The notes under the pieces are model-generated. The model searched no databases. It saw only the letters and a list, made by a program, of their open reading frames with translations, and was not told where the DNA came from. Made by a program: the position numbers and the translations under genes. From Neoarius graeffei (lineage: Eukaryota; Chordata; Actinopteri; Siluriformes; Ariidae), in contig NC_083583.1 of assembly GCF_027579695.1 (NCBI RefSeq), positions 26,827,599 through 26,891,598 of the forward strand: a stretch of DNA of 64,000 bases. Reading direction: 5' to 3'. Below, piece after piece: positions 10,058-45,373 of the stretch; positions within the stretch are counted from its first letter, which is position 1, and the number at the start of each line of letters is the position of its first letter.

Positions 10058-10764
10058 ACATTTTATATGGCAATTTTGTGGACACCTGACCATCACACCC
10101 ATGTGCTTGTTGAATATCCCATTCCAGCTGTGGTCCTCCTCTGCTGTTTATTACAACAGCCGCTCTTCTGGGAAGGCAAGAAGATTTTGGACCATGACGG
10201 TGGAGATTTGTCCATTTAGGCCAGGGGTGTCCAAACTGATCCATAAAGGGCCGTGTGGCTGCAGGTTTTCGTTCCAGCCATGCAGCAGCACACCTGATTT
10301 GGCTCATTCAATCAACTGACACACCCACCCTTTAATCAAGGGTGGGTGTGGCTGCAAGTATTTGACTGTGTGGAGACAGTTCAGTTGATTGAATGAGCCA
10401 AGTCAGGTGTGCTGCTGCATGGCTGGAATGAAAACCTGCAGCCACACGGCCCTTTATGGATCAGTTTGGACACCCCTGATTTAGGCCACAAAGGCATTAG
10501 TGATGTCGGGCAACGAGTCAGAACTTGCAAGCTTCTGCTCTAGATTTAGCAAGCCATATCTTCATGGAGCTTGCTTTGTGCACAGGGGCATTGTCATGCT
10601 GGAATATGTTTGGGCCCTTTAGTTCCAGTGAAGGAAATTTGGTAGACTGTAGCATCAGACGTCTTGTACAGTCGTGTGCTTCCAACTTTGTAGCAACAGT
10701 TTAGGGAAGAACTACACATGGATGGATGTGATGGTTAGGTGTCTGAAAACCTTTGGCCGTAGTG
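10058..10764. mobile_element. Tc1-like non-autonomous element, interrupted by a MITE
   Basis: The left end reads ATATGGCAATTTTGTGGACACC followed by TGACCATCACACC. The right end, inverted, reads CACTACGGCCAAAGGTTTTC then AGACACCTAACCATCACA. These are diverged copies of the common fish Tc1-type end that reads approximately tatGGCCAAAAGTATGTGGACACC. No transposase is visible. Without the inserted MITE (10222-10478) it is about 440 bp. Confidence 0.65.
10222..10478. mobile_element. Foldback hAT MITE
   Basis: Perfect 8-bp duplications ATTTAGGC (10214-10221 and 10479-10486) flank a 257-bp element that is almost wholly an inverted repeat. The ends are CAGGGGTGTCCAAACTGATCC and its complement, with arms of about 110 bases around a short centre. 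It sits inside the Tc1-like element at 10058-10764 and so is younger. Confidence 0.9.
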
Positions 10765-28812: not shown

Positions 28813-29262
28813 GTATTTAAGAAAAGTAGATTATATATTGCCCTGCTTGCACACTTCAGTCTAATGTGATTCGAATACAGTTTGAAATGTGCCCATCTCC
28901 GAGATTCACCTATAATAAGGAAGTAACTGAATATGAATAAATTGTGTTCATACATTCAATGCACATGAAAAGGAGGTTCACTTTATTTTTAAAAGAAGCT
29001 TGCCAGAAGGTTTTCACAGGGCATCTGATTGAGAGGTGTGCATGAAGCTTGCAGGCCACATGTGATGATCATTCATTCATTCATTCATCTTTAGTAACTG
29101 CCTGGTCAGGCTTGCGGTGGAATAAATTAGACTAGTAGGTAATTCGTTATGGCAATTATCATGGCCAGGTAGAAACAAAAATAATAACTGTTCAAGCAGG
29201 GTTTAAAAAAATAACAATAATACACAGTCCTAACTCTAGACGATAGGAGCTAAAGTGATATA

Positions 29263-30838
29263 CAGTGCCTTGAAAAAGTATTCATCCCCCTTGGTGTTTG
29301 TCCTGTTTTGTTGCATTACAAGCTGGAATTAAAATGGATTTTTGGGGGGTTAGCACCATTTGATTTACACAACATGTCTACCACTTTAAAGGTGCACATT
29401 GTTTTTTTTATTGTGATACAAACAATAATTAAGATGAAAAAAAACAGAAATCTGGAGTGTGCATAAGTATCCCCCCCCCCGTCAGTACTTTATAGAGCCA
29501 ACTTTTGCTACAATTACAGCTGCAAGTCTCTTGGAGTATGTCTCTATTAGCTTAGCACATCTAGCCACTGGGATTTTTGCCCATTCCTCAAGGTAGAACT
29601 GTTCCAACTCCTTCAAGTTAGATGGGTTGTGTTGGTGTACAGCAATCTTCAAGTTATGCCACAGATTCTCAATTGGATTGAGGTCTGGGCTTTGATTAGG
29701 CCATTCCAAGACATTTAAATGTTTCCCTTTAAACCTCTCCAGTGTAGCTTTAGCAGTATGTTTAGGGTCATTGTCCTGCTAGACCATGAACCTTTGTCCC
29801 AGTCTCAAACATCTGGCTGACTCAAACAGGTTTTCCTCCAGAATTACCCTGTATTTCCATCTTTCCTTCAATCCTGACCAGCTTTCCTGTCCCTGCAGAT
29901 GAAAAACATCCCCACAGCATGATGCTGCCACCACCATGCTTCACTGTAGGGATGGTGTTCTGAGGGTGTTGGGTTTACGCCACACATGGCATTTCCCATG
30001 ATGGCCAAAAAGTTCAATTTTTGTCTCATTTGACCAGAGAATCTTCTTCCATGTGTTTGGGGAGTCTGCCACATGCTGTTGGGCAAACTCCAAATGTGAT
30101 TTTTTAAGCAATGACTTTTTTCTAGCCACTCTTCCATAAAGCCCCACTCTGTGGAGTGTACAGCTTAAAGTGGTCCTCTGGACAGATAGTCCCATCTCCT
30201 TTGTGGATCTTTGCAGGTCCCTCAGCATTATCATTGGTGTCTTTTTTGCATCTCTGATTAATGCCCTCCTTGCCCGGTCTGTGAGTTTTGGTGGACGGCC
30301 TTTTCTTGTCAGGTTTGTAGTGGTGCCATATTCTTTCCATTTTGCTATAATGGATTTAATGGTGCTTTGTGGGATATTCAAAGTGTGGGATATTTTTTAT
30401 AACCCAACCCTGATCTATACTTCTCCACAACTTCGTCTCTGACCTGTTTGGAGGCTCCTTGGTTTTCATGTTGCTTGCTGCAGAGTCAGGGTCCTTCCAG
30501 AACAGGTTGATTTATACAGACATCATGTGACACTTTGATTGCACACAGGTGGATCTTAATCAACTAATTATGTAAGTTATGAAGTGAATTGGTTGGACCA
30601 GCTTTTATTTTAGGGGTTTCAAATGAAAGGGGGTGAAAACTTATGCACACTCCAGATTTCTGTTTTTTCATCTTAATTGTTGTGTCACATTAAAAAAAAA
30701 AATGTGCACCTTTAAAGTGGTAGACATGTGGTGTAAATCAAATGGTGCTAACTCTCCAAAAATCCATTTTAATTCCAGCTTGTAATGCAACCAAACAGGA
30801 CAAACACCAAGGGGGATGAATACTTTTGCAAGGCACTG
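29263..30838 (-). mobile_element. Full-length Tc1-like transposon, inactivated
   Basis: TA flanks at 29261-29262 and 30839-30840; ends CAGTGCCTTGAAAAAGTATT and inverted CAGTGCCTTGCAAAAGTATT; length 1576 bp. The inverted repeats run about 200 bp. It is a different family from 22729-24748. Confidence 0.93.
29482..30470 (-). pseudogene. Tc1 transposase pseudogene with altered first catalytic residue
   Basis: The - strand frame 30381-29941 gives the DNA-binding region (GRPPKLTDRARRALIRDA) and the start of the catalytic core, where WSNETKIELFG has N in place of the first catalytic D. After a stop and a lost stretch, a TAG precedes QDNDP (about 29795) and the C-terminus resumes at 29709 ([11 protein letters not shown] to AKVGSIKY). 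Multiple stops plus the D-to-N change make it non-functional. Confidence 0.92.
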
Positions 30839-31232
30839 TAGCTGAGGTTGAGGAACTGTCAGGGCAAGAATGAACAAACCATACTGACAGTGTTGGCTTT
30901 TCTAACTCTGTTTTATTGCCAGTGTTTTCACAGACACAGCAATAGGCTTTATTACAAACAAACAAACAATGTTCCCATTTAGGCCACAGCCAATTCAGTT
31001 TAAATCCAAATACAGATATAGATTAATAAGATACTAAACAGATACAGGAAGTGGAATTACACCCTTAACCTACTGTACATGCCTACGAGTTCCTTTAGAG
31101 AACACCTGAAATATTCTGGAGTTGAAAGTATGCGGTTCATGCCTTACTCTCTTACTGAAGTAATAATTGAAAATTATTGAAAAAGTAAACCTCTAGAAAA
31201 CAGACTGTGCAATTATAACATTTACAAAATAT

Positions 31233-35749: not shown

Positions 35750-36042
35750 CCATCAAAGTCTTTAGGGAAGAATTACAGTAGTGGTTTCCCATTGCCTTCT
35801 ACTTGATTATTATAGAGGTTTTCCCCTCTCAGTGATTCTCACACACAATTTAGAGTAGCCAGTTAACCTAACCGTGTGTCTTTGGACTGTGGGAGAAACC
35901 AGAGCACCCAGAGGAAACCCACACAGACACAGGGAGAACATGTAAACTCCACACAGAAAGGCCCCCATCAGCCACTAGGCTTGAACCCAGAACCTTCTTG
36001 CTGTGAGGCAACAGTGCTAACCAACTGCACCACCATACTGCC
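35750..36042 (-). mobile_element. SINE family A, variant 3' body
   Basis: The tRNA head is on the right (TGGTGCAGTTGGTTAGCACT on the - strand). The distal body differs from the common form: it carries GAGGGGAAAACCTC and a stretch ending AGTGGTTTCC..CAT..., also seen at 40265-40395. This defines a second sub-family. Confidence 0.75.
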
Positions 36043-37110
36043 CAATAGGCAAATAAACAAATTAAATAGTCTAATTAATGCAACATAGGGTCTCTCTCTC
36101 TCTAGTTGTCAGAAGTTTAGATGCACTCATCATGGCCATGAAATGTCATGGCAAAATTGGGCTTTCAATAATTTCTTTTAACTGTTCTTTTTCTGGGGAA
36201 GAATGATTTGTACAAAACACATTTAATAGATAAAAGCAAGAATTTGTTACAAGAATTTGGTTTTTAATTTATTTGGGATTTATGAAATCAACACAAGCTC
36301 AAAATAATATATACAGGGTCAAAAATATCCATACAGCACACCTAGTTAAATGCCCCTTAGCAAGTTACACCTTGACCAGCTTCAACAAGCTTCTGGCAGA
36401 ATTCTGGTTGGATGTTTGATCACTCTTCTTGCCACAATTAGTAGAATTCAATAAATTTGTTGGTTTCCTACACCGACCACAATTTTTGATAGGGTTGCGG
36501 TCAGAACTTTTGGGAAGGCCATTCAAAAAACTTAATGTTAGCCTACATTATCCATTCCATAACCAGGAAGCGTATGTTTGGGTTCACTGTCCTGTTGGAA
36601 CACCCAATTGAATCCAAGTTTCAACAGTCTAGGTGATGGTTTGAGGTTATGCAGAACAATTCTAAACTAGTCATCTTTCTTCAAAGATGCGTCTTTGTCC
36701 ATGTGGTCAGTTGAAAACTTTAGTTGAACTTGAAGGTATCAATTTTGGAACAGGGACTTCTTTCTTGGGTGGCACGGTGGTGTAGTGGTTAGCACTGTCA
36801 TCTTACAGCAAGAAGATTCTGGGTTTGAGCCCAGTGGCCGACAGGGGCCTTTCTGTGTGGAGTTTGCATGTTCTCCCCGTGTCTACGTGGGTTTCCTCTG
36901 GGTGCTCTGGTTTCCCCCACAGTCCAAAGACATGCAGGTTAGGCTAATTGGTGGCTCTAAATTGACTGTAGGTGAGAGTGTGAATGGTTGTTTGTCTCTA
37001 TGTGTCAGCCCTGTGATGATCTGGAGACTTGTCCAGGGTGTACCCTGCCCAGGGGCGCAGATAGGATTTTTGAACTGGGGGGGACTGAGCTGTCAGCAAA
37101 TGATTCCATT

Positions 37111-37111
37111 T

Positions 37112-37171
<60 letters not shown>
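37111..37171. repeat. (AT)n/(AC)n microsatellite
   Basis: About 24 AT units pass into AC units, adjoining the left end of the MITE at 37172. Confidence 0.93.
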
Positions 37172-37176
<5 letters not shown>

Positions 37177-37699
37177 CCGTTCAAAAGTTTGGGGTCACTT
37201 TGAAATGTCCTTATTTTTGAAAGAAAAGCACTGTTCTTTTCAATGAAGATCACTTTAAACTAATCAGAAATCCACTCTATACATTGCTAATGTGGTAAAT
37301 GACTATTCTAGCTGCAAATGTCTGGTTTTTGGTGCAATATCTCTATAGGTGTATAGAGGCCCATTTCCAGCAACTATCACTCCAGTGTTCTAATGGTACA
37401 ATGTGTTTGCTCATTGCCTCAGAAGGCTAATGGATGATTAGAAAACCCTTGTACAATCATGTTAGCACAGCTGAAAACAGTTTAGCTCTTTAGAGAAGCT
37501 ATAAAACTGACCTTCCTTTGAGCAGATTGAGTTTCTGGAGCATCACATTTGTGGGGTCGATTAAATGCTCAAAATGGCCAGAAAAATGTCTTGACTATAT
37601 TTCCTATTCATTTTACAACTTATGGTGGTAAATAAAAGTGTGCCTTTTCATGGAAAACACAAAATTGTCTGGGTGACCCCAAACTTGTGAACGGTAGTG
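37172..37699. mobile_element. Tc1-type MITE inside the hAT
   Basis: The ends CACTACCGTTCAAAAGTTTG and, inverted, CACTACCGTTCACAAGTTTG are followed on both sides by GGGTCAC. 528 bp without coding sequence. It probably inserted into the AT microsatellite. Confidence 0.88.
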
Positions 37700-38689
37700 T
37701 GTATACATGTTATTTCACCTCCCTCACTGCCATCACCAGGAACTACCTGCAGGCCAGGACAATGATAACATTTTAACATAGCCTATGGAAATCCAAAGTT
37801 TACACATTATCATCACGCACAGAAATTGCAAAACTACTAAACTAGTTTTAAAACCGCTAAGTTCCAACTGTTAAACATAGCGAGAGGCTGGGCTACGTGT
37901 GTGTGTGTAAAGTGTAAACCAGTGCATCCTGACTTTCTAACTATGCTTGTGTGTTGCGTGAGCGGCAGTCAGTCAACAACTCTTCGCAAAGTTTTCTTAT
38001 GAAACAATATGCTCGCTGAAATTATGGCAGGGAACGCCAGATTAAACATTAAAACTGCCTTCTGAGCACTGTATCTACAGGCTACCACTGAAAGAAGGAG
38101 GCTACCAGAAAGGCATCTCTACTCCGTACGATTTTACTTTCACTACGACATTACTTTGAACAGACTATCAAAAAATTGCAAGGTGATATGATAAAGTAAG
38201 GCACAGTTTACTTGCAGTCGTTTTTTTTTTTAAATGATGCAATCATTTTCTGCCTTTTGGCACCCTTCATCATGCCGTGTTGGGGTCCTGAACTAGGAGG
38301 AGCTGTCCCCGATATGCCTGTCAAACTTGTTGTGGGTAACCATAGCAACCAAGCTCGAGCTCGCAACCCGTGCAGTCTGCGCAGTTGCAACTATGTATGT
38401 ACTGCTGTGCACCTCAATAAACCGAATGGTAATTAGTCTTTTGATTTTTCCGTGAGGTTTGCCTTATGCAAAGAAAGACAGCATAGGCGTTTTTTCCTCC
38501 CTATAAGTGGGGGGGACCGAATGAGGTGAATTTAAATCTGGGTGGGACGAATCCCCCCCGTCCCCCCCTCTATCTGCGCCCGTGACCCTGCCTCTGACCC
38601 ATAGTCAGCTAGGATAGGCTCCAGCTCAACCATGACCCTCTACAGGATAAGCGGCTACAGATAATGGATGGATTCTTTCTTGGATGGTA

Positions 38690-38908
38690 GCCTCTCAGTC
38701 CATGGTGATATAAAATTTGCTTGGCTGTAGACAGTGACACTGGTGTTCCAGCAGCTTCCAGTTCTTGGCAGGTCTGTGCCTTGGTAGTTCCTGGGTTGTT
38801 CTTGACAATCTGAACCAATTTCCTCTCAGCTGAAGGTGACACTTTGGATCTTCTTTCAGACTTTTGCAAAGTGGCTGCACCTCCCAATAATTTGTACTTG
38901 TCAAACAA
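38690..38908 (-). pseudogene. Tc1 transposase N-terminal domain, cut by SINE
   Basis: The - strand reads KVSPSAERKLVQIVKNNPGT and AGTPVSLSTAKQILYHHGLR, the second half of a Tc1 DNA-binding region. The frame runs straight into SINE sequence at 38683. Further decayed transposase sequence continues on the far side of the SINE (36757 down to about 36360), with stops. Confidence 0.85.
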
Positions 38909-39270
38909 ACCCTTTTTCTGTTCGCACAGAGAAGTTACCAGCTGTAGTCAATCATGATCACTAACAGGAGGTTACGAGGCCTTGGACTTGGCAAGTCAGA
39001 AGGTATTTTGGAGCTTTCAGCACCACTGAATTAATAGTCTAAGTGGAGGTATGTATATTCTTGACCCTGTATTTATAATTTTGGCCCTGTGTTGATTAAA
39101 AAAAAAACAAAGTAAAAATTGTACACCAAATTATTATTTTTTTCTATTACAGATGTATATTGTACAATCATTCTTCCCCAGAAAACAAGCAGTTCAACAA
39201 AATCATTGCCCAATATTGCTATAACTTTCATGTCCATGATGAGTGTATGTAAACTTCTGAGCACTACTGT

Positions 39271-41327: not shown

Positions 41328-42427
41328 CTGGCAACTATGCCATAACTCTGGTAAAATGCGACTGAATTGAATGAAATTGTAATGTGTGTATTAACGACAT
41401 ATGACAAAGAATCCTGCCAAGTTTTGTGAAATTCCTCCAAAAATTGTGAGAGGAGTTGATTTCAGAAGGTGAGTACCCTTCCCAGGACGGATGGATGGAT
41501 GGATGGACGGACGGACGGACATCGCCATGACATAATCCCCCTTCAGGCCTTTCGGCCAGCGGGGAATAAAAACTTTTTGCCAAATTACATGAAATTCCTC
41601 CAAAAATTGTGAGGGAAGTTGATTTCAGAAAGCAAGCACACCTTGATGAAATTGCCAAAGTACAAGTTTGTGAATAATCAAGGGCATAACTGGTAAAATT
41701 TACCCAAATTAAATGAAATTTCAATATGAGTATAACTGTCATATAACAAAGCCTTTTGCCAAATTTGGTGAAATTCCTCCACAAATTGTGAGAGGAGTTG
41801 ATTTCAGAAGAACATACACCCTCATGAAATTGTCAAAGTACAAGTTATTTAACCAAGGGTCAAAACTCTGGTAAAATTTTCACAAACGAAATTAAACCAC
41901 AATATGCGTATTACCGTCATATAACAAGGCCTTTTGCTAAGCTTCGAGAAATTCCTCCAAAAATTGTGAGAGGAGTCGATGTCAGAAGGCAAACACATCT
42001 TCATGAAATTGTAAAAGTACAAGGTTGTTAATCAAGGGCCACAACTCTGGTAAAATGCGACTTAATTGAGCAAAATAACAACATGCGTATTACCGACATA
42101 TAACAATGCCTTTTGCCAAGTTTGGTGAAATTCCTCCAAAAATTGTGAGGAGTTGATTTCAGAAGGAAAACACACTCTCATGAAATTGTCAAAGTATAAT
42201 TTTGTTAATCAAGGGCTGTAACTCTGGTAAAATGTGACCAAATTTAACAAAATTACAACGTGTAGTACCGACATACAACAAAGAATCCTGCCAAGTTTTG
42301 TGAAATTCCTCCCAAAATTGTGAGCGGAGTTGATTTCAGAAGGTGAGTACCCTTCCCGGGACGGACGGACGGAAATCGCCACGATGTAATCCCCCTTTGG
42401 GCCTTTCGGCCAGCGGGGGATAAAAAC
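41328..42427. repeat. Tandem array, about 180-bp unit
   Basis: The phrase CTGGTAAAAT recurs at about 41348, 41689, 41868, 42048 and 42226, a spacing of 178-180 bases (341 across the first gap, which holds a tail and a partial unit). GAAATTCCTCCAAAAATTGTG is shared by nearly every unit. Two copies end in the same tail: GGTGAGTACCCTTCCC, (GGAC/GGAT)n, ATCCCCCTT..GGCCTTTCGGCC..GGGGATAAAA, which can fold into a hairpin. Confidence 0.88.
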
Positions 42428-45029: not shown

Positions 45030-45373
45030 GGGCGGCGTAGTGGTTAGCACTGTCGCCTCACAGCAAGAAGGTCCTGGGTTTGAGCCCAGCTGCCGGTGAG
45101 GGCCTTTCTGTGTGAAGTTTGCATGTTCTCCCCATGTCTGTGTGGGTTTCCTCCCACAGTCCAAAGATATGCAGGTTAATTGGTGGCTCTAAATTGACCG
45201 TGAGTGTGAATGGTTGTTTGTTTCTCTATATGTGTGTGTGTCAGCCCTGTGATGAGTTTGTCCAGGGTGTACCCTGCCTCTCGCCCATGGTCAGCTGGGA
45301 TAGGCTCCAGCTTGCCCCCTGTGACCCTGCACGGGATAAGCGGTTACAGATAAAACAAACAAACAAACAAACA
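45030..45373 (+). mobile_element. SINE family A with (AAAC)n tail
   Basis: Duplication ACCATCATGATC at 45018-45029 and 45374-45385. It lacks part of the head and has several internal gaps; the tail is an AAAC/ACAA repeat. Confidence 0.92.

Follow-up and report, generated by a model that had tools for sequence, protein, structure and literature searches.

At positions 36102-39269 of the stretch of DNA analysed here (64,000 nt, C15:26827599-26891598 of a 2.34-Gb genome of 38 contigs; termed the window), a Tc1-like relic is interrupted by a SINE, the SINE is interrupted by a hAT-like element, and the hAT-like element holds a Tc1-type MITE beside a tract of TA repeats (Table 1). Elsewhere in the window lie a coding stretch of the chondroitin N-acetylgalactosaminyltransferase family (PF05679, 601.5 bits) and, at 41575-42343, a 179-bp unit in 4.3 tandem copies (80% matches). 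Together with the kinds of element present, the coding stretch would point to a ray-finned fish. Pattern scans of viral contigs and prokaryote genome contigs, and searches of phages and plasmids with the MITE, gave no matches, as is expected for vertebrate-like sequence. A first-pass annotation of the locus had described a four-level nest with exact boundaries, from which the order of activity Tc1, SINE, hAT, MITE could be read.

Table 1. Elements and duplications that make up the nest, in window positions
Feature	Position	Strand	Evidence or remark
Tc1-like relic, outermost layer	36102..39269	-	transposase remnants; inverted terminal repeats of ~220-230 nt
Internal deletion in the focal Tc1, approximate site	36683..36692		part of the catalytic domain missing
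Left SINE target duplication, TTCTTTCTTGG	36758..36768		sequence
SINE interrupting the Tc1	36769-38672 (hAT included)	+	between copies of the 11-bp duplication
SINE 5' part, older subfamily	36769..37049	+	alignment with 13 other window copies
Left hAT target duplication, ACCCTGCC, within the SINE	37042..37049		sequence, scan, alignment
Non-autonomous hAT-like element with MITE	37050..38584		tips, duplication; a young, high-copy family
(TA)23 tract	37118..37163		separates the hAT left end from the MITE; length differs among copies
Tc1-type MITE, internal hAT cargo	37172..37699		in 36/36 hAT copies, same orientation; free copies TA-flanked
Right hAT target duplication, ACCCTGCC	38585..38592		sequence, scan, alignment
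SINE 3' part, tail GATAATGGATGGA	38593..38672	+	alignment with window copies
Right SINE target duplication, TTCTTTCTTGG	38673..38683		sequence

A decayed Tc1-like element forms the outer layer

The outermost layer is bounded by inverted arms (36103-36334 and 39049-39266) that share 75.8% identity by BLAST; with some flank included, 179 of 246 aligned columns match. Six-frame reading revealed transposase remnants on the minus strand, in a frame broken by stops, and the relic matches the Sleeping Beauty structures 5unk and 5cr4 (5cr4 E 2.1e-10). Like Sleeping Beauty-type Tc1 elements, it retains DNA-binding and catalytic transposase pieces and long inverted repeats; unlike them, it is a decayed relic, internally deleted and with stops. 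Searches with the two halves each yielded 39 other scored genomic places, from about 5,000 and 4,500 first-look candidates. At the approximate deletion site, the focal copy has 4-60 nt versus 129-226 nt (one 754) in all 21 measurable other Tc1 loci, a net shortfall of 69-204 nt (one 739), and the alignment to 5cr4 skips from residue 36 to residue 110, matching the deleted part.

Of 30 tip rows from other loci, 15 show TACAGTTG as the family tip. For the focal copy, the alignment gives CTCT|C(T)AGTTG---TCAGAAG at the left end and, on the reverse strand, TATACA|CAGTAGTGCTCAGAAG at the right. No TA target duplication adjoins either tip, the nearest on the right side being a TA two bases farther out, and the outer boundary is therefore not exact. 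We take the missing TA as decay; the relic is assigned to Tc1/mariner because of its transposase and family copies, not a TA at its tips. At 29261-30840 of the window, inverted repeats (218 nt, 91.7%) surround about 1.6 kb, a Tc1-like size.

Removal of the SINE makes the Tc1-like element continuous

On its own, the right-half transposase piece matches PF01498 with 36.3 bits over profile positions 2-51; joined across the SINE site, the match rises to 46.5 bits over positions 2-72 of 72 (cut-off 31.5). The transposase domain is thereby completed. The Sleeping Beauty alignment runs in frame across the same site, over a stretch that is weak by itself (i-Evalue 0.039).

The relic was compared at this site with 26 other Tc1 loci, of which seven had been selected via the left half and 19 via the right half. 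A single alignment spans the SINE site in 25 of them, the remaining locus (L006) matching one side only, and 24 of the 25 have 30-40 nt or more aligned per side. Within 12 nt of the SINE duplication, a gap is absent from 19 spanning loci and present in six. The word TTCTTTCTTGG is found at the aligned Tc1 place with 11 of 11 letters in 14 of the 25 loci and with 7-10 of 11 in the other 11. The Tc1-like element was thus split by the SINE, as first annotated: the 11-bp duplication is present, and the element is continuous with other copies once the SINE is taken out.

The focal SINE differs by 8.9% from the majority of four older near full-length copies in the window, and nine younger window copies differ by 0.3-2.5% from their own majority. 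These values come from an alignment of 13 of the 14 other near full-length window copies, leaving out the copy at 45031 and six shorter pieces. Classification as a SINE draws on this dispersal (14 other near full-length copies in the window) together with the 11-bp duplication; 12 of the 14 are themselves flanked by a shared word of at least 12 letters, one mismatch allowed. ARAGORN found no tRNA in the window, and Rfam, searched with 36700-37060 at an E-value limit of 5, returned nothing. By eye, the SINE contains candidate tRNA-like promoter words. A reverse-oriented SINE part also lies immediately left of the nest, at 35846-36034 of the window.

A young hAT-like family interrupts the SINE

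The SINE is in turn split by the hAT-like element, again as first annotated, with an 8-bp duplication taken from SINE sequence; when the hAT is removed, the junction is gapless against 13 of 13 window copies. Tips of hAT elements begin with CAG. The focal tips, CAGGGGCGCAGATAG and CACGGGCGCAGATAG, match at 14 of 15 positions and have the same form in other copies. A scan for hAT-type ends, defined as an 8-bp direct repeat around inverted tips of 12 bp with at most one mismatch, returned three pairs in the window, the focal hAT among them, against a chance level of two pairs in total across 20 first-order random sequences. Apart from the MITE, six-frame reading of the element revealed no long frame that could encode a hAT transposase; it is therefore non-autonomous, and its assignment to hAT follows from its tips and duplication. 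A palindromic hAT-like element with tips CAGGGGTGTCCA and duplication ATTTAGGC lies at 10222-10478 of the window.

A search with the hAT right part (879 nt) gave 1,732 first-look candidates, which are unconfirmed, and 39 scored places besides the focal one, all 96-98% identical to it; the family is young. Thirty loci, the focal one included, were fetched by this right part, and the ends were recognised in all except L037, L039, L047, L049 and L056. Exact 8-bp duplications flank 24 of the 25 loci with both ends recognised (the exception being L050), and these 24 duplications are 24 different words. By eye, the hAT in L049 has CTGTGATG on both sides. In L040 and L045, on different contigs, the duplications CCCGCTGA and CCGCTGAC overlap by seven letters, perhaps through insertion into different copies of a repeat. 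Six further loci (L059-L064) contain TGTATACATGT left of the tract, near the hAT left end, having been picked with a query that contained this word; the focal copy is without it on the left. Most hAT copies have TGTATACATG right of the MITE, which together with TGTATACATGT forms a direct repeat around tract and MITE.

These junctions also bear on whether the layers arrived one by one. The Tc1 could have moved here ready-made with its SINE, or the SINE with its hAT, for which MER6, a Tc1/mariner MITE containing a V-SINE, offers a precedent (PMC6887750). We regard such a composite arrival as very improbable: of 40 scored places, the focal locus alone spans the junction between Tc1 and SINE, and for the junction between SINE and hAT the corresponding count is two of 40, the second being L069. 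L069 resembles the focal junction but is a different site: its hAT end lies seven bases farther along, its SINE fragment is another one, and its surroundings differ. Separate arrival of Tc1-like element, SINE and hAT remains our reading. We do not claim that hAT insertions cluster within the SINE, as there are three such cases, one of which the query had been designed to find.

The MITE is most likely cargo of the hAT family

Inside the hAT, the MITE has tips CACTACCGTTC... and lies next to the TA tract, where the first-pass annotation had placed it; its left edge is blurred by a TA/CA microsatellite. Every one of the 30 hAT loci fetched via the right part has it, the focal locus among them (L039 and L049 partial). 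Since these 30 had been required to contain the right part, a query lacking the MITE was used to pick six more loci via the left end, and all six contain it (L059 partial, with a deletion across the right edge). Among the 35 copies other than the focal one, the MITE is full in 32 and partial in these three. All 36 copies have it in one orientation, and in 35 of them it leads straight into the hAT right part, L059 being the exception through its deletion. Single-letter changes occur in the flank next to the MITE in some hAT copies. Median divergence from the majority is 0.76% for the MITE (33 copies, three of the 36 being too short) and 1.14% for the hAT (34 copies, two being too short). These values are biased low, as the 30 right-selected loci rank high in similarity to the focal copy, whose own divergence is 0.76% in the MITE and 1.25% in the hAT. 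Because the MITE is in all sampled hAT copies, with similar divergence, we conclude that it arrived at this locus with the hAT.

The alternative that four separate insertions took place here, with the MITE as the final arrival in a hAT that already lay in the SINE, draws on the position of the MITE within the hAT and on its well-matched tips. All 35 other hATs, mostly with target duplications of their own, nevertheless contain the MITE in the same orientation, and with a MITE-less query none of 40 scored places (613 at first look) aligns across the join, although strongly diverged copies would escape this search. A fourth insertion at the locus is therefore extremely improbable. The first-pass annotation had proposed that each layer, when removed, should leave flanks that match uninterrupted copies elsewhere in the genome; this held for the Tc1, SINE and hAT layers and failed for the MITE. 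The nesting it described is genuine, and the coordinates it gave hold up well, but the locus holds three layers of insertion, the MITE having come with the hAT. Of its exact boundaries, those of the SINE and the hAT (two of four layers) stand, while the outer Tc1 tips and the left edge of the MITE do not.

Could the MITE-like part be an old, integral piece of the hAT that was never separately mobile? Its presence in 36 of 36 hAT copies and a divergence resembling that of the hAT would fit, but the element also occurs by itself. The TA-flanked MITE tip has 8,065 exact matches in the genome, an unspecified share of them within hATs, versus none for a reversed control. Nine of ten MITE loci chosen by pattern lie outside this hAT context (L071 lies inside the hAT); the stretch around L075, one of the nine, includes a separate hAT piece. 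As the search pattern itself demanded TA at one tip, the second tip is the informative one: seven of the nine free loci show it, and six of these seven have TA there (the tip of L076 is changed, and in L075 and L080 one tip is seen). Identity to the focal MITE is 94.7-98.5% for six free MITEs: five that align over the whole length in one piece and keep both tips, and L076, with its one changed tip. An integral origin is accordingly most unlikely, and we treat the element as a mobile one. With its TA duplication, inverted tips and high copy number it has the features of a Tc1-type MITE; its tie to Tc1 is presumed from the TA and from the tip sequence.

Free and hAT-borne MITEs (6 and 34 copies) have no near-diagnostic column between them, and an unresolved tree has the free copies scattered among the hAT-borne. 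As the two are inseparable, sequence does not prove one capture, and site and orientation carry most of the weight. The same inseparability would suit repeated, independent jumps of MITEs into one TA tract in different hAT copies, as would the targeting of TA by Tc1-type elements and a tract full of TAs. Such jumps are hard to reconcile with the single orientation, with a hAT right part that resumes directly after the MITE wherever L059's deletion does not intervene, and with the lack of any empty hAT among the 40 scored places; we give them very little credence. Most likely, the MITE entered a hAT ancestor once and has travelled as cargo since. We infer the capture itself, since no MITE-less hAT parent was found among the scored places, a set that older MITE-less branches could escape. 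The capture and both expansions may have been close in time, as the similarity of the copies suggests.

Order of insertion and family activity

Taken as a whole, the locus very probably records three successive insertions: the Tc1-like element, then the SINE, then a hAT already carrying a MITE that an ancestor had captured once. Divergence agrees with this local order (Tc1 arms 24-27%, SINE 8.9%, hAT about 1.2%). The sequence of events first proposed thus holds here from Tc1 through SINE to MITE-bearing hAT; it does not extend to the MITE as the last arrival, nor to the order in which the families were active.

Evidence on family activity comes from other hAT copies. In four of 36 (L032, L034, L043 and L044), a young SINE lies inside the hAT TA tract, in both orientations and with differing junctions, and these are therefore four independent SINE insertions. 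Conversely, the hAT in L049 lies within a young SINE. Since both arrangements, SINE in hAT and hAT in young SINE, exist in the genome, the nest cannot give the order of family activity: the SINE came first at this locus, and the SINE and hAT families overlapped in time.

A fifth SINE in a hAT TA tract was found at L069:912-1285. It belongs to a composite (L069:804-3094) in which two hAT left ends, a SINE and a SINE fragment are combined with a single right end. The 8-bp word AATCAGGG flanks this composite on either side; aberrant repair, or transposition of a rearranged element, may have produced it. The TA tract is possibly a hot spot for SINE insertion; in none of the 36 copies was a SINE seen in the adjoining MITE or in the left end, and the right part, required intact in 30 of them, is uninformative in this respect.

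Discussion

We propose that a Tc1-like transposon inserted first, later decaying and losing an internal piece. A SINE of the older subfamily then entered its transposase region, presumably by target-primed reverse transcription, with the 11-bp duplication as its trace. Finally, a non-autonomous hAT of ~1.5 kb entered the SINE, presumably by cut-and-paste, leaving the 8-bp duplication. Before this, the MITE would have jumped once into an ancestor of the hAT, after which the hAT machinery could have spread hAT and MITE as a single unit, with transposase probably supplied by an autonomous hAT elsewhere.

Reading the order of insertion from which element interrupts which is established, as in REANNOTATE (PMC2672092) and TinT (PMC3014933), and the same logic is applied here. 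Those methods are whole-genome, and TinT is frequency-based, whereas we consider one locus in which inherited cargo is innermost. A plain nesting rule would count the cargo MITE as the latest insertion. The nest is mostly ordinary stratigraphy, with one useful correction: the insertions had been overcounted by one.

MER6/MER6A, a Tc1/mariner MITE that took up a V-SINE and spread with it (PMC6887750), is similar in that a non-autonomous DNA transposon spreads as a unit with an acquired mobile element. The two differ in that MER6/MER6A has a Tc1/mariner carrier and a SINE as cargo, while in the present case a hAT-like element carries a Tc1-type MITE that is also abundant alone. Titles and abstract openings in the literature on fish nested elements, SINEs, insertion order and composite MITEs, which are weak evidence, gave no description of a hAT/MITE composite, and those on SINEs in TA repeats gave none either.

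We suggest, tentatively and with some doubt, that the hAT family may act as a two-way vehicle, in which the MITE rides the hAT, free MITEs use TA and the microsatellite serves as a landing pad for SINEs, so that three systems feed one spreading composite. For transposon stratigraphy, the locus carries a warning that the deepest layer of a nest may be imported cargo and not the youngest event. That SINE and hAT families interrupt each other in both directions within one genome means that a single nest cannot date families. The hAT/MITE composite also provides a tractable case in which to ask if a non-autonomous element spreads differently when it holds cargo or a microsatellite.
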